64,000 nt of DNA, taken from Arthrobacter sp. CAN_C5 (GTDB lineage: Bacteria; Actinomycetota; Actinomycetes; Actinomycetales; Micrococcaceae). Shown in pieces: positions 1-12,058 of this stretch. The stretch is from NCBI RefSeq assembly GCF_017875735.1, contig NZ_JAGGMZ010000001.1, positions 868,001 to 932,000 of the forward strand, read 5' to 3'. A program made the translations under genes and the position numbers. How positions within the stretch are numbered: position 1 is the stretch's first letter; every line of letters starts with the position of its first letter. Under the pieces are notes generated by a model. The model made no database searches. It saw only the letters and a program-made list of their open reading frames with translations, and was not told the origin of the DNA.

Positions 1-111
1 GACGTTGTCGACAGCGCCCCCAAGGCTGTGCTGGAAGGCGCAACCAAGGATGCTGCCGAGAAGGCCAAGGAATCCCTCGAGGCCGCTGGCGCGACGGTAA
101 CCCTGAAGTAG
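1..111 (+). CDS. rplL: Ribosomal protein L7/L12, C-terminal end (partial)
   Basis: The first 36 codons, open at the window edge, end in TAG at 109-111. They encode the end of the L7/L12 C-terminal domain, recognisable from the SAPKAVLEG stretch, the AEKAKESLEAAGA helix and the closing VTLK. L7/L12 forms the ribosomal stalk that recruits and activates the translational GTPases; two of these, EF-G and EF-Tu, are encoded further on. The start and N-terminal dimerisation domain lie outside the window. A strong terminator follows at once, so this is the end of a transcription unit, presumably rplJ-rplL. Confidence 0.93.
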   Translation, partial: DVVDSAPKAVLEGATKDAAEKAKESLEAAGATVTLK

Positions 112-130
112 GCTCTTTCAGCTATTCAAA

Positions 131-167
131 GAAGCCCCGGACTCCACGAGTCCGGGGCTTCTTTGTG
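131..167 (+). terminator. Intrinsic terminator after rplL
   Basis: A perfect 13-bp inverted repeat (131-143 with 149-161, loop of five bases) is followed by the T-rich run TTTGTGT. It separates rplL from the convergent thiolase gene and could stop transcription in both directions. Confidence 0.85.
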
Positions 168-223
168 TCCGGGGGCGGTCGATCACCCCGAGCTGATGGG
201 CCCGGGGTGATTCCCCACGCCGC

Positions 224-1426
224 CTAGTTCAGGTAAAGCAGCAGCGCCTCGCCCTGACCGCCGCCACCGCACAGCGACACGGCCGCCCGGCCAGCGCCGC
301 GCCGCCCCAACTCATGCGCAGCGTGCAACGCGAGGCGTGCACCCGAGGCGCCGATGGGATGGCCCAGGGCGATTGCCCCGCCATGGATGTTGCAGTTCTC
401 CAGCGGGTAGTCCAGGTCCTGCAGTGACTGGCAAGCAACCGAGCCGAACGCCTCATTGATCTCGATGAAGTCCAGATCGGAGCTCTGCCAGCCGGCGCGG
501 TCCAGCGCCTGTTCGATCGCGCGCGACGGCTGCGAGTGCAGGGAGTTGTCGGGCCCGGCCACCTGACCCGGCTGCCCCACCACCGCGAGGATGGTCAACG
601 ACTTCTCCTCGGCGTGGGCACGGGTGGTCAGCACGAGCGCTGCGGCTCCATCGGAGAGTGGGGACGAGTTGCCAGCGGTAATCGATCCTGCCTTATCAAA
701 CGCGGGCCGCAGCCCGGCCAGGGACTCCACGGTCGTCGTGGGGCGGACACCCTCGTCCTGGGTCAGCACCACCGGCTCACCCTTCCGCTGGGGGACAGTG
801 ACCGGGACGATTTCGACGTCGAATACGCCCGACTCCATGGCAGCGGCTGCCCGCTGATGCGAAGCCGCGGCCACGGCGTCCTGATCTTCGCGGCTGATCC
901 CCAGCCCGGTGTTGCCCCGTTCGGTCGAGGCGCCCATCGATTCGTTGTCGAAGGCGTCGGTGAGGCCGTCGTTGGCTACCGAGTCGATTGCCTGGATGTT
1001 GCCGTACGTCCAACCCTGCCGCGATCCCGGCAGGAGGTGCGGTCCGCGGGTCATTGACTCCTGGCCGCCGGCGATGACCACCGTCGCCTCGCCGCTACGG
1101 ATCAACCGGGCGGCATCGATGACAGCGGTGAGGCCTGAGAGGCAGACCTTGTTAAGGGTGACGGTGGGGACATCCCAGCCGATACCGGCCTTGAGCGCGG
1201 TTTGCCTTGCGGGGTTCTGGCCGCAGCCTGCCTGGATGACATGGCCCATGATCACTGCCTGTACCGAGCCGGCGTCGACCCCTGCCTTGTCCAGCGCGCC
1301 GGCGATTGCCATGGCACCCAGGTCGACAGCCGTGAAGGAGGACAGTTGCCCGTTGAGGCGGCCGTGCGGGGTTCGCGCACCCCCGACAATGACGACGTCG
1401 GTCGGGGACTTTTCTTCAGTGTTCAT
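224..1426 (-). CDS. Acetyl-CoA acetyltransferase (thiolase)
   Basis: A 400-residue thiolase of normal family length. The nucleophile is Cys95 in NKVCLSG, the catalytic His356 lies in the GHPIG motif and the second cysteine is Cys386 in CGGGG, so all active-site residues are present. The enzyme condenses two acetyl-CoA to acetoacetyl-CoA or catalyses the reverse thiolysis. It stands alone on the minus strand, convergent with rplL. Whether it serves fatty acid breakdown, polyhydroxybutyrate or another pathway cannot be told from the context. A role in feeding isoprenoid synthesis is unlikely to be direct, because most actinobacteria use the methylerythritol route. Confidence 0.92.
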   Translation of the reverse strand: MNTEEKSPTDVVIVGGARTPHGRLNGQLSSFTAVDLGAMAIAGALDKAGVDAGSVQAVIMGHVIQAGCGQNPARQTALKAGIGWDVPTVTLNKVCLSGLTAVIDAARLIRSGEATVVIAGGQESMTRGPHLLPGSRQGWTYGNIQAIDSVANDGLTDAFDNESMGASTERGNTGLGISREDQDAVAAASHQRAAAAMESGVFDVEIVPVTVPQRKGEPVVLTQDEGVRPTTTVESLAGLRPAFDKAGSITAGNSSPLSDGAAALVLTTRAHAEEKSLTILAVVGQPGQVAGPDNSLHSQPSRAIEQALDRAGWQSSDLDFIEINEAFGSVACQSLQDLDYPLENCNIHGGAIALGHPIGASGARLALHAAHELGRRGAGRAAVSLCGGGGQGEALLLYLN

Positions 1427-1493
1427 CGAGGGGAACGCTCACTTTCGTCTTTGAAGCAGTTGCGTCAAGGCTACTCTGTCCGGTCCAGCTCAG

Positions 1494-2090
1494 CTAGTGA
1501 ACATTAACTGAAATGGGTTGCCGACTCCGCGAGAGCGTGGCTGCCAGCAGCACCCCAGCCACCAACGAACCGACTCCACCGGCAGCTATATCGCTCAAGG
1601 TGTCTTCATAGCCCACATTGATTTCATGGGTGATGTACTTGCTCCCCGCCCACTCGGCAAACTCCCACACGACGCTCAGGCTCAGACCCAGGGCAAGGGT
1701 GATGATGGTGACCCCGGTTGCGGTCCGACGGCCGGGCGCAGGTCGAGGGAGATAGCGCATCCGCAGGAGCAGCAGGTAGGCGATGAGGGCAATGGCCGCG
1801 GTGGCAAGCGTATGGACGGCAAGATCCCACCACGAGATGAGCTCGTACAGGTCGATGACGGCGCTCCACCCCGCAACAAGCAGGGTAGCTCCGTAGGCGG
1901 CATCGACCCGGGGATCAACGCGAACCATCCGGGACACAAGGACGCCACCGAGCACAAGGAACAGCACTGCGAATTCAACGGGCCCCCACCAGAGCAACAC
2001 AGCGATGACGCTGAGCAAGGCAGCCGTTCGGATCACGTCGGCCGTCACCGCCCAGGGGGTTGACGCAGGTCGAAGTAGATCGTCAATCAT
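1494..2090 (-). CDS. Polytopic membrane protein of unknown function
   Basis: About 198 residues with roughly five to six hydrophobic segments. Charged positions are buried in or next to helices (DLYELISWWDLAVH and VWEFAEWAG) and a GYEDTLSDI stretch precedes the last helix. This pattern resembles the YjdF/DUF2238 type of inner membrane protein, an assignment made from memory of the pattern only. I chose ATG at 2090 because an AGGGTG ribosome-binding site lies six bases before it; GTG at 2099 is an alternative. It is transcribed away from the glycosyltransferase, from a shared intergenic gap of about 25 bases. Function unknown. Confidence 0.75.
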   Translation of the reverse strand: MIDDLLRPASTPWAVTADVIRTAALLSVIAVLLWWGPVEFAVLFLVLGGVLVSRMVRVDPRVDAAYGATLLVAGWSAVIDLYELISWWDLAVHTLATAAIALIAYLLLLRMRYLPRPAPGRRTATGVTIITLALGLSLSVVWEFAEWAGSKYITHEINVGYEDTLSDIAAGGVGSLVAGVLLAATLSRSRQPISVNVH

Positions 2091-2101
2091 GTAAAACACC
2101 C

Positions 2102-2107
2102 TAGTAT
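2102..2107 (+). promoter_or_regulatory. Candidate -10 element giving a leaderless glycosyltransferase mRNA
   Basis: TAGTAT ends seven bases before the ATG at 2115 and there is no ribosome-binding site in front of that ATG. Transcription would therefore begin at or within a base of the start codon. No clear -35 is visible. Confidence 0.35.
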
Positions 2108-2114
2108 CAATGGC

Positions 2115-2852
2115 ATGCCCCCAACACTTTCAGTGGTCATCCCGTGCCGCAACGACGGTGACCTCCTGGCCCTTTGCCTGCAGGCTCTGGGCGCCCAGAC
2201 CCGGCCCCCGCTGGAGGTGATAGTCGTCGACAATGGTTCGACCGATTCGACAGTTGCGATTGCCGAGGCGCACGGGGCGCGGGTGGTCACCGAACCGGTG
2301 ATCGGGATCGGGGCAGCCGCAGCAGCTGGCTACAACGCTGCCCAGGGCACCATCATTGTCCGATGCGACGCCGACTCGGTGCCGTCCGGGGACTGGCTGG
2401 AGAAGATCGCCACCCGCTTCGCCGACGACGTCGGGCTCGCAGCGCTCACGGGACCCGGACAGTTCTACGATGTTTCCCGGTGGCGGGGCGCCGCCGCGGA
2501 CCTGCTGTACATGCGGGCCTACCTTGTCCTCATGGGTGCGGCCATGGCGCACTGGCCACTGTTCGGCTCCAATATGGCCTTCCGCTCCGAGGTGTGGGAA
2601 GCGGTGCGTACCCGGGTGCATTCAACCGACCCCGAGGTGCACGACGACGTCGACCTCGCGTTTGCACTGGCCCCGGGGCATCGAACGGCGTGCGATTTCT
2701 CGCTTCGGGTCGGGATTTCGCCCCGGGCGCTCATCGGGGGAGCCGACCTGCGACGCCGCTTCGTCCGTGCGTTTCGCACGATTGCGCTGCACTGGAGGGT
2801 TTCGCCACCGTGGGAGCGGTGGGCGGGCCGTTACCGCCCGGCGGCCAGATAG
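2115..2852 (+). CDS. Family 2 glycosyltransferase
   Basis: A 245-residue GT-A fold glycosyltransferase. The N-terminus has the usual LSVVIPCRNDG strand, followed by VVDNGSTD for nucleotide-sugar binding and a DAD metal-binding motif in RCDADSVP near residue 90. There are no obvious membrane helices, so it acts in the cytoplasm or at the inner membrane face. It lies beside idi and the carotenoid operon, convergent with idi, so glycosylation of a hydroxylated C50 carotenoid is a possible role, but this rests on position alone. A general cell-wall or lipid glycosyltransferase is equally compatible with the sequence. Confidence 0.85.
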   Translation: MPPTLSVVIPCRNDGDLLALCLQALGAQTRPPLEVIVVDNGSTDSTVAIAEAHGARVVTEPVIGIGAAAAAGYNAAQGTIIVRCDADSVPSGDWLEKIATRFADDVGLAALTGPGQFYDVSRWRGAAADLLYMRAYLVLMGAAMAHWPLFGSNMAFRSEVWEAVRTRVHSTDPEVHDDVDLAFALAPGHRTACDFSLRVGISPRALIGGADLRRRFVRAFRTIALHWRVSPPWERWAGRYRPAAR

Positions 2853-2878
2853 CGCGACGACCGGCTGTGCCTCGGGGA

Positions 2879-3427
2879 CTACCCGGCGGGGTAGAGCAGC
2901 GGAAGCTGGAGCGTCAGCCAGGGGCTGAACGCCCAGGGGGTGAGCCGGACCGATTCGACCAGCTGGTGGGGTTCTACCCACTCCCACTGGCTGACCTCCG
3001 AGTCCCGTGGGGATAGCTCGCCAACGCAACGGGCGGTGTAGACGGGGCAGATCTCGTTTTCGACCACCCCGGAGAAGTCCACGGCCCGGTACCTGAAATC
3101 GGGGAGCGCGAGGGAAAGGTCAGTCACGGCAATCCCCAGTTCGTAGCCGGCCCTCCGCGCAATCGCGTCGACGGTGGATTCGCCCGGTCCTGGGTGCCCG
3201 CAGAACGAGTTGGTCCAGACGCCCGGCCAGGTGCGCTTGGACAGCGCCCGGCGGGTGACGAGGATCCGCCCGTCGTCGTCGAACACGTGGGTGGAGAAGG
3301 CCAGGTGCAGCGGCGTCGAGGTGTGGTGCACCTCCGCCTTGTCCTGGGTGCCGGTGGGTGCCCCGGATTCGTCAACGAGGACCACCAGTTCAGTACCGGA
3401 TCCCGAACCGCCGTCTGCTTCAAGCAC
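2879..3427 (-). CDS. idi: Isopentenyl-diphosphate delta-isomerase, type I
   Basis: A 182-residue Nudix-fold isomerase that interconverts isopentenyl and dimethylallyl diphosphate. The active-site cysteine is Cys76 in WTNSFCGHP, and the metal-binding and catalytic glutamates are Glu123 and Glu125 in VVENEICPVY. The start is GTG with an AGGGAG site ten bases upstream. It is transcribed divergently from crtE and supplies the allylic primer for CrtE, so the two promoters share a short gap of about 65 bases that holds a palindrome (3455-3464). Confidence 0.95.
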   Translation of the reverse strand: MLEADGGSGSGTELVVLVDESGAPTGTQDKAEVHHTSTPLHLAFSTHVFDDDGRILVTRRALSKRTWPGVWTNSFCGHPGPGESTVDAIARRAGYELGIAVTDLSLALPDFRYRAVDFSGVVENEICPVYTARCVGELSPRDSEVSQWEWVEPHQLVESVRLTPWAFSPWLTLQLPLLYPAG

Positions 3428-3454
3428 TGTCTGACTGCTCCCTGACCTGAGTCG

Positions 3455-3464
3455 TTTAGCTAAA
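3455..3464. promoter_or_regulatory. Palindrome TTTAGCTAAA in the idi-crtE intergenic region
   Basis: A perfect 10-bp palindrome in the only non-coding gap between the divergent idi and crtE genes. It overlaps the position expected for a crtE -35 element if TTTACT (3481-3486) is the -10. Related carotenoid operons are controlled by a MarR-family repressor, CrtR, at this place. No crtR is present in this window, so the operator role is an inference. Confidence 0.45.
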
Positions 3465-3480
3465 GAATGTGAGGTCAGTG

Positions 3481-3486
3481 TTTACT
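3481..3486 (+). promoter_or_regulatory. Candidate crtE -10 element
   Basis: TTTACT ends seven bases before the ATG at 3493, which has no good ribosome-binding site. This would make the crtE transcript leaderless. The -35 region (about 3458-3463) falls inside the palindrome. Confidence 0.35.
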
Positions 3487-3492
3487 TTACCT

Positions 3493-4557
3493 ATGGACAT
3501 GGAAACCTTGCTGGTCGACTCCCGCGGCTTGGAGCAGGTGGAAAGTGTCCTCTCAAACAGTTTTGCCCGCTCGAAGGCCCGTGCGGCGACCCTTGGTCCT
3601 ACGTACCACCACCTGTGGGAAACACTCGAGAACTGCGCCGCTGGCGGCAAGCGTTTTCGTCCGCGCATGGTCATGACCGCTTACGACTGCCTCGCCGGGA
3701 CCGACCGGGACAACGCAGCTCTGGTGGCAGCGTCCTTCGAAATGCTCCACACGGCACTGATCGTTCACGACGACGTGATCGACCGGGATTTCGTCAGGCG
3801 GGGCATCCCCAACGTGTCGGGTACCTACCGGCTGCTGGCCGAAGACGCAGGCCTCGCACCCGACGACGCCGCGCACCGCGGACTGTCCATGGGACTCATT
3901 GCCGGGGACCTGGCCCTCTCCAGTGCCCACCGCCTGCTCGATGGCGTCCGCACCGACCCCGCCACGCGGGAACGGCTCGGTGAGCTCCTTGATGACGCAG
4001 TGTTCGCCTCCGCGGCGGGGGAACTGCTCGACGTCGACGCTTCAACCTCCGACGTGGCATCGTCCGAGGAAACCCTCCAGATGGCGCGGCTGAAAACGGC
4101 TGTGTACTCGTTCGAAAGCCCGCTCAAGGCCGGTGCCGTCCTGGCGGGTGCCGATGAAGCCATCATCGATTCCCTCGGTGATTTCGGCAGGGATGTGGGG
4201 ATCGCCTACCAGCTGGCCGATGATATCCTCGGCGTTTTCGGGGACGAGAAGACCACCGGAAAGACCACCTGGGGGGACCTGCGGGAGGGCAAGCGGACCG
4301 CCCTGATCTCGTACGTCGCCCAGCGGGCCGAATGGGAGCAGATTTCATCACTGGTCGGATCGCCGGAGCTCTCGGCCGCCGGGGCCGAGAAGATCCGCGG
4401 AGTCCTGAGGTCCAGCGGGGCACTGGATCACGTGGTGTCGCTGGCAGGAGACTATGCGCAGCGGGCACAGGAGCATCTGGGTGCCGCGCATATCCCGGCT
4501 GAACTGCGCGACGGGCTGGCCCACGTCGCCACGGCCGTCCTGGCGAGGGTGCGTTAG
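3493..4557 (+). CDS. crtE: Geranylgeranyl diphosphate synthase
   Basis: A trans-prenyltransferase of 354 residues that extends allylic diphosphates to the C20 precursor of phytoene. The first aspartate-rich motif is DDVID (residues 93-97) and the second is DDILG in QLADDILGVFGDE; GKRFRPRM near residue 52 is the conserved basic region. GTG at 3469 is a possible longer start, but the ATG at 3493 sits correctly behind a -10-like hexamer and is preferred. It is the first gene of crtE-crtB-crtI-crtEb and is followed after three bases by crtB, which indicates one transcript. Confidence 0.94.
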   Translation: MDMETLLVDSRGLEQVESVLSNSFARSKARAATLGPTYHHLWETLENCAAGGKRFRPRMVMTAYDCLAGTDRDNAALVAASFEMLHTALIVHDDVIDRDFVRRGIPNVSGTYRLLAEDAGLAPDDAAHRGLSMGLIAGDLALSSAHRLLDGVRTDPATRERLGELLDDAVFASAAGELLDVDASTSDVASSEETLQMARLKTAVYSFESPLKAGAVLAGADEAIIDSLGDFGRDVGIAYQLADDILGVFGDEKTTGKTTWGDLREGKRTALISYVAQRAEWEQISSLVGSPELSAAGAEKIRGVLRSSGALDHVVSLAGDYAQRAQEHLGAAHIPAELRDGLAHVATAVLARVR

Positions 4558-4560
4558 CCC

Positions 4561-5454
4561 ATGCAGCCACACGACGCCCTTGCCTTCTACACCGATGTCA
4601 CCCACCGCACCTCGGCCGTGGTGATCAAGTCCTACTCCACCTCGTTTGGGCTGGCCTCCCGGCTATTGGGTGGTGACGTCCGCCAGCACGTTGAGACGGT
4701 CTATGCCCTGGTCCGGGTTGCCGACGAGGTGGTCGACGGCGCGGCTGCCGCAGCGGGGCTCAACCCCGATCAGACGCGGGAGGTACTCGATGACCTGGAG
4801 AGCGAAACCGAGCGGGCCATGGCTACCGGGTACAGCGCCAACCCGGTGGTTCACGCCTTTGCCAACACCGCACGGGAAACCGGAATCACCGCCGAGCTGA
4901 CCCGACCCTTCTTCGCCTCGATGCGTGCCGACCTGGAACGGACCGAGCACACGCAGGAGTCCTTCGACGAGTACGTCTACGGCTCGGCCGAGGTGGTGGG
5001 CCTGATGTGCCTGAAATGCTTCCTGTACCAAGAGGTAACCAAGCCAAGCGCCGCCCAGGAACAAAAGTTCGTCGACGGAGCCCGCCGACTGGGAGCTGCC
5101 TTCCAGAAAATCAATTTCCTGCGCGACCTTGCCGACGACTTCAAGTCGCTGGGGCGCAGCTACTTTCCCGGTATCAGGCCCGGAAACTTCGGCGAAGCCG
5201 ACAAGCACCGGCTCCTCGATGACATTGCAGCTGACCTGGCCGTGTCTGCCGAGGCACTTCGGGAGCTGCCGGGTTCCAGCCGTCGCGCCGTCGCTCTGGC
5301 CCAGGGGCTCTTCGCCGAGCTTTCCGCGCGGCTACGCGACACCCCTGCTGAAGAACTCCTGACGTCGCGGGTCCGGGTGCCTAACCCGGTGAAACTCCGA
5401 ATTGCCGCCCGGGCACTGGCGGGCCGTGTCCCGCAGCCTGATGAAACACCCTGA
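4561..5454 (+). CDS. crtB: Phytoene synthase
   Basis: A 297-residue squalene/phytoene synthase that joins two geranylgeranyl diphosphates into C40 phytoene. The two magnesium-binding motifs are DEVVD (residues 55-59) and DLADD (189-193, in NFLRDLADDF), and the region KSYSTSFGLASRLLG near the N-terminus matches the family. The ATG follows the crtE stop after three bases, with GAGGG inside the end of crtE as ribosome-binding site. Length and motifs are complete. Confidence 0.95.
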   Translation: MQPHDALAFYTDVTHRTSAVVIKSYSTSFGLASRLLGGDVRQHVETVYALVRVADEVVDGAAAAAGLNPDQTREVLDDLESETERAMATGYSANPVVHAFANTARETGITAELTRPFFASMRADLERTEHTQESFDEYVYGSAEVVGLMCLKCFLYQEVTKPSAAQEQKFVDGARRLGAAFQKINFLRDLADDFKSLGRSYFPGIRPGNFGEADKHRLLDDIAADLAVSAEALRELPGSSRRAVALAQGLFAELSARLRDTPAEELLTSRVRVPNPVKLRIAARALAGRVPQPDETP

Positions 5455-5473
5455 TGACCACCGGAAGGCTGCC

Positions 5474-7132
5474 ATGAACTCCCACGCACCCCTGAACAGC
5501 CCAGTGAACGGCCCACGTCGGAAGGTGATAGTCATCGGCGGCGGAATCGCTGGCCTCGCCTCGGCTGCCCTGCTCGCCGAGGAGGGCCACGAGGTCACCG
5601 TGCTGGAGAAGCAGGCAGCCACGGGCGGGCGGGCGGGCCTCTGGGAACAGGATGGGTTCAGGTTCGACACCGGCCCGTCCTGGTACCTGATGCCCGAGGT
5701 GATCGATCACTTCTTCAAGCTGCTCGGCACCAGCGCCACCGCGCAGCTGGACCTGGTCAAACTCGATCCGGGGTACCGGGTGTACTCGGAGGGGCACACC
5801 CAGCCCATCAACGTTCCCGCTGAGCGCGCCGACGTCGTGAAGTTGTTCAACGACATCGAACCAGGGGCGGGGGAGGCCCTGGAGAAGTATCTGGACTCGG
5901 CGAGTGAAACTTACACCATGGCTACCCGGCGTTTCCTCTACACCACCTTCCAGTCGTTCCTGCCGTTCCTACGCCCGGATGTCCTCAGCCGAGTCCCCAA
6001 GCTGGTTCGCCTGCTGCTGCAACCGCTGTCCAGGCTCGCCGCCGCAACGGTGACTGATAACCGGCTGCGCCAGATTCTGGGGTACCCGGCGGTCTTCCTC
6101 GGTACCTCCCCCTTCGAGGCACCCAGCATGTACCACCTGATGAGCCACCTGGACCTCGACGACGGTGTCCTGTACCCGATGGGTGGGTTTACCCGGCTGA
6201 CCGAAGCCATCCACTCGCAGGCCCGGAGCCGGAACGTGGAGATCATCACCGGAGCGCGGGTGGATCAAATCCTGACCCTGCCCGGCGATGGGCGGTCCCA
6301 GAAGGCGCGGGTGACCGGCGTCCGTTGGGTCGCGGCCGACGGCGCCGTGCACACTACCGCTGCGGACACGGTGATCGCAGCCAACGACTTGCACCACGCC
6401 GAAACGCAGCTCCTGCAACCCGCGGACCAGACCTACCCGGAGAAATACTGGTCCAGCCGGACGGCTGGCCCCAGTGCTCTGCTGCTGTACCTGGGCGTCA
6501 AGGGCGGACTGCCCGAACTGGAACACCACACCCTCTTGTTCACCGCTGATTGGGAAGACAATTTCTCGCGGATTTTCGGTAAGACCACCTCGGTGCCGAC
6601 CCCCGCGTCGCTGTACGTGTGCCGGCCGAGTGCCACCGACCCCGGTGTGGCCCCTGAAGGCCATGAGAACGTGTTCGTGCTGGTGCCAGTGCCTGCTGAC
6701 CCCGGGCTGGGAGCTGGCGGGATCGACGGCGCGGGCGATCCCGGCATTGAGAGCCTCGCCGACACAGTGATCGACCAGATCAGCAAGTGGGCGGATATCC
6801 CCGATCTCGCGGACCGCATTGTCGTCCGCCGCACCTATGGGCCGCAGGACTTCGTCGGGGACTTCAACGCCTGGCAGGGCACCTCGTTGGGCCCGGCGCA
6901 CGTGCTCAGGCAGAGCGCGTTCTTCAGGGGCCGCAACAAGAGCCGCAAGGTCGAGGGGCTCTACTATGCGGGCAGCTCAACCATTCCGGGCATCGGCATC
7001 CCCATGTGCCTGATCAGCGCCGAACTGCTGATCAAACGGCTGCGCTCCGACACCAGCACCGGTCCGCTGGCGGAGCCCCTGGTTGCCCGGGCGGGCGTTC
7101 CAGAGGCCGCCGTGGGCAAGGACGGGCAATGA
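5474..7132 (+). CDS. crtI: Phytoene desaturase
   Basis: A 552-residue FAD enzyme that turns phytoene into lycopene in four desaturation steps. The N-terminal dinucleotide fold GGGIAG lies at residues 22-27, and the C-terminal signature YYAGSSTIPGIGIPMCL is intact. I chose ATG 5474 because GGAAGG lies six bases before it; an in-frame ATG at 5441 would overlap crtB. The stop TGA (7130-7132) overlaps the ATG of the next short ORF as ATGA, the arrangement of a translationally coupled downstream gene. Confidence 0.95.
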   Translation: MNSHAPLNSPVNGPRRKVIVIGGGIAGLASAALLAEEGHEVTVLEKQAATGGRAGLWEQDGFRFDTGPSWYLMPEVIDHFFKLLGTSATAQLDLVKLDPGYRVYSEGHTQPINVPAERADVVKLFNDIEPGAGEALEKYLDSASETYTMATRRFLYTTFQSFLPFLRPDVLSRVPKLVRLLLQPLSRLAAATVTDNRLRQILGYPAVFLGTSPFEAPSMYHLMSHLDLDDGVLYPMGGFTRLTEAIHSQARSRNVEIITGARVDQILTLPGDGRSQKARVTGVRWVAADGAVHTTAADTVIAANDLHHAETQLLQPADQTYPEKYWSSRTAGPSALLLYLGVKGGLPELEHHTLLFTADWEDNFSRIFGKTTSVPTPASLYVCRPSATDPGVAPEGHENVFVLVPVPADPGLGAGGIDGAGDPGIESLADTVIDQISKWADIPDLADRIVVRRTYGPQDFVGDFNAWQGTSLGPAHVLRQSAFFRGRNKSRKVEGLYYAGSSTIPGIGIPMCLISAELLIKRLRSDTSTGPLAEPLVARAGVPEAAVGKDGQ

Positions 7133-7197
7133 TTCCTGCCCCCTACCTGGTCATACTGTTGGCCGCTACGGCGCGGGCTGAACGGAACCGCGCATGA
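7129..7197 (+). pseudogene. 22-codon ORF, probable remnant of excised lycopene cyclase genes
   Basis: This tiny ORF starts with an ATGA overlap on the crtI stop and ends with an ATGA overlap on the elongase start. It fills exactly the place where related C50 clusters carry the two small heterodimeric lycopene cyclase genes (crtYe/crtYf or crtYg/crtYh). The first 15 codons encode a hydrophobic stretch (PYLVILLAATA) like the first helix of such a cyclase subunit, and the last seven are charged, like a C-terminal tail. The reading frame is preserved, as if an in-frame deletion had joined the start of the first gene to the end of the second. That origin is inferred. It could instead be only a coupling linker. 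Confidence 0.5.
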
Positions 7198-8084
7198 GCG
7201 CCGACGCCAGGACCGGCCTGTCCGGGACCGCGAAGATGCTGCTGGTGTCCTCCCGCCCCGTGTCCTGGGTGAACACGGCGTTCCCCTTCGCGGCCGCGTA
7301 CTTCCTCACCACCGGGTCCATCGATCTGGCGTTTGTTCTCGGGACGCTGTACTTCCTGATCCCCTACAACCTGGCCATGTACGGCATCAACGACGTCTTC
7401 GACTACGAGTCGGATCTCCGGAATCCCCGCAAGGGCGGGGTGGAAGGTGCCGTCCTGGACCGCAGCTTCCACCGCGTCACCCTGTGGGCTGCAGTGCTGA
7501 CGAATGTCCCGTTCCTGGTGGCACTGCTGCTGCTGGGCAACCCGCTGTCTGCGCTGGTGCTCGCGGTGAGCGTGTTCGCGGTGATCGCCTACAGCGCTCC
7601 CGGACTCCGGTTCAAGGAGCGACCCTTCCTCGATTCGGTCACCTCCAGCACCCACTTCGTCAGTCCGGCCGTATTCGGGCTGGTGCTTGCAGGCGCCACC
7701 TTCGACGTCGGCCTCTGGGCGGTGCTGGGGGCGTTCTTCCTCTGGGGCGTCGCCAGCCAGGCCTTTGGTGCGGTGCAGGACATCCAGGCCGATCGTGAAG
7801 GTGGCATCGCCTCGATTGCGACGGTCCTCGGGGCACGCACCGTCGTGCGCTTCGCCGTCTTCGCCTACCTGCTGAGCGGACTGCTGATGCTGATGACGCC
7901 CTGGCCGGCAATGCTCGGTGGACTGCTGGCCCTGCCGTACATCCTGAGCATCCTGCCTTTCGCCGATCTCCGCGACGAGGACTGCGAAAGCGCCAACCAG
8001 GGGTGGCGGCGTTTCATCAGGCTGAACTTCCTCACCGGGTTCCTGGTGACCATGCTCCTGATCTGGGTGACCCAGGCAGGTTGA
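7194..8084 (+). CDS. crtEb: Lycopene elongase (UbiA-family prenyltransferase)
   Basis: A 296-residue integral membrane prenyltransferase with about eight hydrophobic segments. The two prenyl-diphosphate binding motifs are NDVFDYESD (Asn66, Asp67, Asp70, Asp74) and DIQAD (Asp196, Asp200). In C50 clusters this protein adds dimethylallyl units to both ends of lycopene, giving nonaflavuxanthin and then flavuxanthin. It is the last gene of the operon and starts inside the stop of the 22-codon ORF. With no cyclase beside it, its product should stay acyclic. A quinone-type UbiA role is less likely because of the operon context. Confidence 0.9.
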   Translation: MSADARTGLSGTAKMLLVSSRPVSWVNTAFPFAAAYFLTTGSIDLAFVLGTLYFLIPYNLAMYGINDVFDYESDLRNPRKGGVEGAVLDRSFHRVTLWAAVLTNVPFLVALLLLGNPLSALVLAVSVFAVIAYSAPGLRFKERPFLDSVTSSTHFVSPAVFGLVLAGATFDVGLWAVLGAFFLWGVASQAFGAVQDIQADREGGIASIATVLGARTVVRFAVFAYLLSGLLMLMTPWPAMLGGLLALPYILSILPFADLRDEDCESANQGWRRFIRLNFLTGFLVTMLLIWVTQAG

Positions 8085-8125
8085 CCGGGCCGGGCTGACC
8101 CGGATCACGTATACCACACCCCGGC

Positions 8126-8154
8126 TGGACAGGGCGGGCGCTCTGCAGTACAGT
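8126..8154 (+). promoter_or_regulatory. rpoB promoter
   Basis: -35 TGGACA (8126-8131), a 17-bp spacer and -10 TACAGT (8149-8154). This predicts transcription from about 8161 and a leader of nearly 200 bases before rpoB. Confidence 0.65.
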
Positions 8155-8160
8155 AGATAT

Positions 8161-8356
8161 TTGCGTCTTTCCTCTTAACCTCGGCCTTCATATAGCGGTG
8201 GGCTTTGTTTTGCGTTAGTCATTTAACGGCAGATTCACTGTCCGGTATGACCGCAGGCAATTGGTTCGCACACACAATCCCCGCGTTGATACGCGGCGGC
8301 AGTGCAAAGAGGGCGGATATAGCTGAACAAGCCGAAGGTCTGTGGAAGGATCCCTC
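8161..8356 (+). promoter_or_regulatory. rpoB leader with a small hairpin
   Basis: This untranslated stretch contains the inverted repeat CCGCGT/ACGCGG (8281-8286 with 8291-8296, loop TGAT). It also holds TCATATAGCGG (8188-8198), which recurs in front of rpoA, and the ribosome-binding site GGAAGGA (8344-8350) placed six bases before a TTG codon. No gene was seen in it. Confidence 0.5.
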
Positions 8357-11866
<3,510 letters not shown>

Positions 11867-12058
11867 GGCGACCTTCGGATTTAGCCCACTCCGGTGCCTG
11901 GAGTAAGGCGGCTTTAATATTTCAGAGGCCGTCCGCGGCCGAAGAAATTTCGTTGCCGCCGTTCCAGGTACCGGAGCGGGCGCCGGAACCGCCCGCTCCC
12001 TCCCCGCCCCTTATGAAGACTTCAAGAATTTAGAGAACAAAGAGAGAACAGGGACCAT

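Follow-up and report, generated by a model that had tools for sequence, protein, structure and literature searches.

How does a bacterium come to carry a C50 carotenoid operon in which a 22-codon ORF takes the place of the cyclase genes, and what pigment would it then make? The locus lies in a window of 64,000 nucleotides, bases 868001-932000 of the 3.86 Mb single-contig genome of Arthrobacter sp. CAN_C5. Using the ORFs of this window and profile searches, we identified crtE, crtB, crtI, the 22-codon ORF and a lycopene elongase in this order, with rpoB next:

3493-4557, plus strand: crtE-like polyprenyl (GGPP) synthase (PF00348, E 6.2e-49)
4561-5454, plus strand: crtB phytoene synthase, the sole PF00494 match in the genome at E 0.01
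5474-7132, plus strand: crtI phytoene desaturase (TIGR02734, 556.6 bits, cut-off 238.1)
7129-7197, plus strand: 22-codon ORF, fused remnant (deletion scar) of crtYe head and crtYf tail
7129-7158, plus strand: part of the ORF assigned to the crtYe head (MIPAPYLVIL)
7159-7166, plus strand: breakpoint zone with genome G027 as yardstick, the exact base lying beyond resolution
7167-7197, plus strand: part of the ORF assigned to the crtYf tail, including the sequence directly 5' of the elongase ATG
7194-8084, plus strand: lycopene elongase, CrtEb-type UbiA prenyltransferase (PF01040; NF009608, 479 bits, cut-off 217)

With crtB-crtI and a CrtEb-type elongase in one cluster, this is a C50 operon of the decaprenoxanthin/sarcinaxanthin type. 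The decaprenoxanthin operon of Corynebacterium glutamicum is given as crtE-cg0722-crtBIYeYfEb (PMC3598387); its order around crtB-crtI and the elongase is like that found here and its crtYe/crtYf site matches that of the relatives described below, whereas in our strain crtYe/crtYf are represented by a 22-codon fusion, and a second, unlinked pair is present. The ORF translates as MIPAPYLVILLAATARAERNRA (22 codons and TGA), with the hydrophobic start and charged tail that an earlier note on this DNA had described. Its position between crtI and the elongase with ATGA overlaps on both sides, also reported in that note, is exact at 7129-7197: the ATGA at 7129-7132 overlaps its start with the crtI stop, and the ATGA at 7194-7197 overlaps its stop with the elongase start. 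The cluster contains no complete crtYe/crtYf (or crtYg/crtYh), only this fusion. A tblastn search with CrtYe and CrtYf of G027 gave no match at E 1e-10 in positions 1-12000 of the window, and the cyclase profile TIGR03462 matched nowhere in the window.

The nearest members of the genus have a complete crtYe and crtYf at the position of the 22-codon ORF. A scan with the elongase found at least 561 relatives; in the best 80 named loci, which we analysed, the two cyclase subunits precede the elongase without exception (80 of 80), and crtI was also seen in 79 (L089 is the one without it). In a set of 38 genomes of the genus, which overlaps with the 80 loci in some genomes, a CrtEb-type elongase is present in 11. 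The 10 other copies are 73-95% identical to that of the window and every one of them is adjoined by a cyclase pair, leaving the genome of the window alone without one. The deletion is observed so far in one genome.

Does the ORF derive from the missing genes? The ATGA overlaps fix both of its ends, so that no search was needed to compare it with the crtYe head followed by the crtYf tail of a relative, and each shuffle of its interior was given its own best breakpoint. Against G027, whose CrtI is 96% identical at the amino acid level, 51 of 69 nt match, a score that 0 of 100,000 shuffles reach (best 42). The comparison with G024 gives 47 of 69 nt (0 of 100,000 shuffles; best 44) and that with G015 gives 41 of 69 nt (17 of 100,000 shuffles). 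With G027 the best score of 51 is obtained for breakpoints at offsets 30, 32, 33, 34 and 37, and a score of 50 at offset 38; with the more distant genomes the best breakpoints fall at offsets 47, 49 and 50 (G024) and at 38 and 45 (G015). Relative to G027, ~638 bp are missing. The ends are thus homologous to both lost genes of the relatives, in order and in place, as an in-frame gene-deletion remnant should be, and the alignment supports a fusion in which roughly 10-12 codons from the start of crtYe are followed by the final 10-12 of crtYf. The earlier note had read the ORF as such a scar, with cyclase termini at its two ends and translational coupling retained; the alignment to the gene ends of G027, the complete genes at this site in relatives and the two intact ATGA junctions all agree with it. 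That the ORF is instead a leader peptide or chance ORF unrelated to the cyclases would fit its short length. We give this reading next to no credence, since no shuffle equals its similarity to the gene ends of G027 or of G024 and since it sits at the exact operon position.

The remnant, hereafter the stub, has diverged since. Its 36-nt head carries 12 nt differences from the crtYe of G027 and 11 from that of G024, as against 7 between those two, and 5 of 12 crtYe-derived residues differ from G027, as against 1 of 12 between G027 and G024. The head peptide therefore seems to be no longer constrained. In the last 33 nt there are 7 differences from the crtYf tail of G027, as against 12 between G027 and G024, and the tail gives no such sign. 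Because the stub has its own substitutions, an assembly error is an unlikely source of it. No clear direct repeat was seen by eye at the scar. We found no report of such a scar, of C50 cyclase loss or of coupling scars in the literature searched, which covered few subscription papers.

Has the stub been retained for the sake of translation? Selection could have kept it as a leader for translational coupling, across which ribosomes pass from crtI to the elongase. Both ATGA junctions are intact, and only one of the three phases stops at 7195, that of the stub, the other two stopping at 7179 and 7796. Among the best 80 of the at least 561 loci, moreover, crtYf and the elongase overlap by 4 nt in 58 and crtYe and crtYf in 78, counts biased towards 4-nt overlaps, since among possible starts the one giving the overlap closest to 4 nt was taken. 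However, the phase is a 1-in-3 chance outcome and one genome cannot show selection; the stub head departs from G027 at the 5 residues noted above, as if the peptide were unconstrained; a junction without the stub might couple equally; and the crtI-crtYe overlap varies among the same 80 loci (4 nt in 27, 1 nt in 29, other in 23 and not seen in 1). The tail may have survived for a simpler reason. It includes the bases directly before the elongase ATG, so a longer deletion would remove the likely initiation region of the elongase, and this alone could explain why the tail is still there. Retention as a coupling leader is a tentative possibility, compatible with the explanation of the locus that we favour below.

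From the operon alone, the earlier note had concluded that the cell should make an acyclic C50 pigment of the flavuxanthin or bacterioruberin type. In C. glutamicum, crtYeYf are described as the genes of the sole C45/C50 cyclase; their deletion is reported to cause accumulation of flavuxanthin and a pale orange to red colour, and deletion mutants were complemented ectopically (PMC3598387). The same operon genes are missing here as in that mutant. The difference is that here the deletion is natural, has left a fused remnant, and is accompanied by a complete second pair in the genome, found by a genome-wide TIGR03462 search of the kind that the earlier note had proposed, with two matches above the cut-off at C1:446780-447390:

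C1:446771-447468, ~428 kb from the stub and outside the window: complete second heterodimeric cyclase pair

The second pair consists of two adjacent small subunits, encoded by overlapping ORFs of 114 and 118 aa (L034 6772-7116 and 7113-7469), both of which pass the cut-off of 39.4 (61.0 and 53.2 bits); of the two, only the second also matches PF18916. One more TIGR03462 match (14.8 bits, E 0.11) fell below the cut-off and was dismissed. At columns conserved in ≥93% of 114 other pairs, the second pair agrees in 23 of 25 and 21 of 22, including the P-x-E-E and P-x-E-D stretches; for the operon pairs that are intact in the clade, three in number, the figures are 23 of 25 and 21-22 of 22. By eye in the translations, two of its three departures (of 47 columns) are common to all four second pairs known from the genus set and the third to three of the four. 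Its dN/dS is 0.19 and 0.14 against G027 and 0.11-0.20 across three relatives (simple Nei-Gojobori), so that it looks to be under purifying selection. In passing the cut-off and keeping most conserved residues it resembles the known heterodimeric CarR-domain cyclases (TIGR03462; CrtYe/Yf, CrtYg/Yh, LbtA/B, CrtYc/Yd). It differs from them in standing alone: it is flanked by a LacI-type regulator on one side and two small multidrug-resistance-type genes on the other, all three on the opposite strand, and no other crt gene was seen by eye among the listed ORFs of the 15 kb around it. A simple scan found no sigma-70-like promoter on its strand, and a search of solved structures with the first subunit gave no match at E 1.

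A further difference from the known cyclases is that in three relatives, G027, G024 and G015, the second pair is co-resident with the operon pair (four TIGR03462 matches each); in total it occurs in 4 of the 38 genus genomes. By DNA similarity of its surroundings it occupies the same site in G027 and G015, and in G024 only ~0.7 kb holding the pair aligned. In G027 (C117; L144 ~5376-7027) ~1.65 kb separate the regulator-side similarity from the second pair, as compared with ~0.1 kb in the genome of the window, and G015 aligns through the region without this stretch. A 2010 survey states that there is no obvious paralogy in the heterodimeric CarR-domain cyclase type (PMC2889829); G027, G024 and G015 are an exception to this statement insofar as they contain co-resident pairs. 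A table of Antarctic Arthrobacter gives one crtYe and one crtYf for strain H20 (PMC4326396), as against the four TIGR03462 matches in G015, which we take to be H20. No report of a second C50 cyclase copy was found in the literature searched, which covered few subscription papers.

Since a complete second pair is present, an acyclic C50 pigment does not follow from the state of the operon, and on balance the genome content tips against it. The earlier note had itself set a crtYe/crtYf pair elsewhere in the genome, together with a cyclic pigment, against its prediction; the genetic half of that combination is what we observe. The steps up to the elongase appear intact: dN/dS against G027 is 0.04 for crtE, 0.07 for crtB, 0.05 for crtI and 0.11 for the elongase (0.09-0.11 against three relatives), indicating that the path to flavuxanthin is under constraint. 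Flavuxanthin is an isomer of decaprenoxanthin, so mass spectrometry, the means of identification proposed in the earlier note, would by itself be unlikely to tell the two apart; the acyclic pigment, with its more extended chromophore, absorbs at longer wavelengths. The formula of decaprenoxanthin is given as C50H72O2 (PMC11731199). We found no match to a full-length CrtY/CrtL-type cyclase in the genome. There are 6 matches to PF05834, each covering only 34-51 N-terminal positions of 380, and one of these (24.7 bits) is just above the cut-off of 23.4. Such matches occur in 14 of 14 control genomes, above the cut-off in 9, and we take them to be dinucleotide-binding motifs of other flavoproteins and not cyclases.

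Bacterioruberin requires CruF. No CruF (PF04240) match was found in this genome at E 0.01 by a search that matched in 4 of 14 control genomes, and bacterioruberin, the other pigment named in the earlier note, is therefore an unlikely product. Pink Arthrobacter such as A. agilis and A. bussei, which share the genus name, are described as producers of this acyclic C50 carotenoid (PMC8709818); unlike in this strain, PF04240 is matched in 25 of the 38 genus genomes. Cyclase pairs are present in 11 of the 38 and the two occur together in none, while G018 and G021 have neither.

Where did the second pair come from? Its second subunit shares 49-53% identity with the operon copies found in this clade. 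A family search with it matched 222 of 395 genomes, and among the matches listed none beyond the four second pairs exceeds 54% identity. We built a tree from 74 of 118 pairs, in which three genomes are represented twice; 26 loci of the family set and 18 of the loci L098-L140 (43 in all) were left out. In this tree, which holds no CrtYc/CrtYd reference, the second pair falls on a long stem (0.92) in a 44-row clade composed mostly of C50-operon pairs of Microbacteriaceae (SH-aLRT 97). The second pairs form a group with support of 100, as do the three operon pairs that remain, and the four genomes look like one clade. We had expected transfer from Microbacteriaceae. In AU tests, however, trees that unite the second pairs with the operon pairs of their own genomes (p 0.43) or with operon pairs of Micrococcaceae (p 0.24) were not rejected, so that transfer and duplication would both be compatible with the data. 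Plasmid searches for C40-type cyclase references returned one Arthrobacter plasmid only. In the same tree, operon cyclase pairs of two other strains lie on very long branches (1.56 for Arthrobacter sp. H35-D1, L139 7358-7998; 0.81 for Arthrobacter sp. H14-L1, L110), perhaps having relaxed or changed function.

The explanation of the locus that we favour, and consider probable as a whole with ample room for doubt, combines redundancy, deletion of the operon pair and cyclisation of C50 in trans. The ancestral operon would have been crtE-crtB-crtI-crtYe-crtYf-elongase, as in the sister genomes. The ancestor probably already had the second, unlinked pair, judging from the common location of that pair in this genome, G027 and G015, so that by parsimony redundancy would have preceded the loss and made the operon pair dispensable, the loss being tolerated because a second pair was already present. 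A deletion of ~640 bp in this lineage would then have joined crtYe codon 10-12 to the last 10-12 codons of crtYf, in a phase that ends at the old crtYf stop, so that from crtI to the elongase each stop still overlaps the next start; the fusion with its two ends is observed directly, and the event itself is deduced from the relatives by parsimony. The stub would have no product function of its own and at most carry ribosomes from crtI to the elongase. The second pair would most likely take over the cyclisation of the elongase product in trans, in which case the C50 pigment would probably still be cyclic. A chimeric operon of M. luteus crtE2 and C. efficiens crtYeYf is described as giving three products in an engineered C60 pathway (PMC6393565), so an elongase and a cyclase need not share an operon. 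Some features of the second pair hint against trans cyclisation of C50, namely the 49-53% identity of its second subunit to the operon copies, its long stem of 0.92, its position off the operon without a promoter found by the simple scan, and an association with rhodopsin genes that may point to a different role.

The divergence and separate position of the second pair could mean that it forms a different ring product. A rhodopsin gene is present in the genome:

G000:C1:650752-651432 (L189 7660-8526), minus strand, outside the window: rhodopsin (PF01036, 134 bits)

Among solved structures it is best matched by 9hfk (named bacteriorhodopsin), psXR, Gll0198 and xanthorhodopsins; the lysine presumed to bind retinal is aligned in both alignments shown. 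By eye it is adjoined by no recognisable retinal or carotenoid gene. Rhodopsins are also encoded in G024, where the surroundings look alike, and in G015, G001 and G005, or in 5 of the 38 genomes including this one.

The second pair might therefore supply, for example, beta-carotene for the retinal or the antenna of the rhodopsin, while the C50 pigment stays acyclic and of the flavuxanthin type. The xanthorhodopsins among the best matches speak for this, as do the deep divergence of the pair and its separation from the C50 operon, and a rhodopsin is found in 3 of 4 genomes with a second pair as compared with 2 of 34 others (38 genomes; one-sided Fisher 0.0045). However, G027 has the second pair without a rhodopsin match, G001 and G005 have a rhodopsin without a cyclase-domain match, and the apparent single clade of the four genomes reduces the association to a few events, which makes the link suggestive and not clean. 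No Blh match was found in this genome by a search that matched no control either, and by eye no Blh-like ORF is listed beside the rhodopsin; the actinobacterium Aurantimicrobium minutum, with putative crtYe/Yf, is reported to make retinal without blh (PMC7734400). The second pair also lies among C50-operon pairs in the tree, to the extent that a tree lacking CrtYc/CrtYd references can place it. Given the exceptions in both directions, the apparent shared ancestry and the want of a recognisable Blh, we rank another ring product second to cyclisation of C50 in trans and consider it rather unlikely. Its stricter form, in which the pair is dedicated to a beta-ring chromophore or antenna of the rhodopsin, the C50 cyclase is lost and an acyclic flavuxanthin-type carotenoid is the main pigment, is unlikely on the same evidence. 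If true, ring formation would have split from the C50 pathway to become a private cyclase for a light pump, a natural chemotype switch with a legible operon scar in a genus in which CruF and cyclase pairs never occur together (38 genomes). It is improbable, finally, that the second pair is unexpressed or inactive and the strain accumulates flavuxanthin. The lack of a promoter-like site on its strand and the departures at 3 of 47 conserved columns could be read in this way, but the dN/dS of 0.11-0.20 against three relatives suggests constraint, and departures common to at least three of the four second pairs are not decay in this strain.

The scar is a record of natural C50 cyclase gene loss for which a sister genome shows the intact state. 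The co-resident second pair points to redundancy and, apparently, a subsequent loss among cyclases in which the broad survey cited above saw no obvious paralogy. An operon alone is thus a poor basis for predicting an acyclic pigment, as the missing step may be encoded elsewhere, and the case allows a clean test of whether small heterodimeric cyclases can replace one another on C40 and C50 substrates. The family search with the second subunit also gave two matches per genome in three genomes of one genus (g15): G051 (C1:97685-99565), G124 (C1:10900-12762) and G207. The matches are ~1.3 kb apart in G051 and G124, suggesting two neighbouring cyclase pairs in each, and for G207 one place is given among the matches listed.
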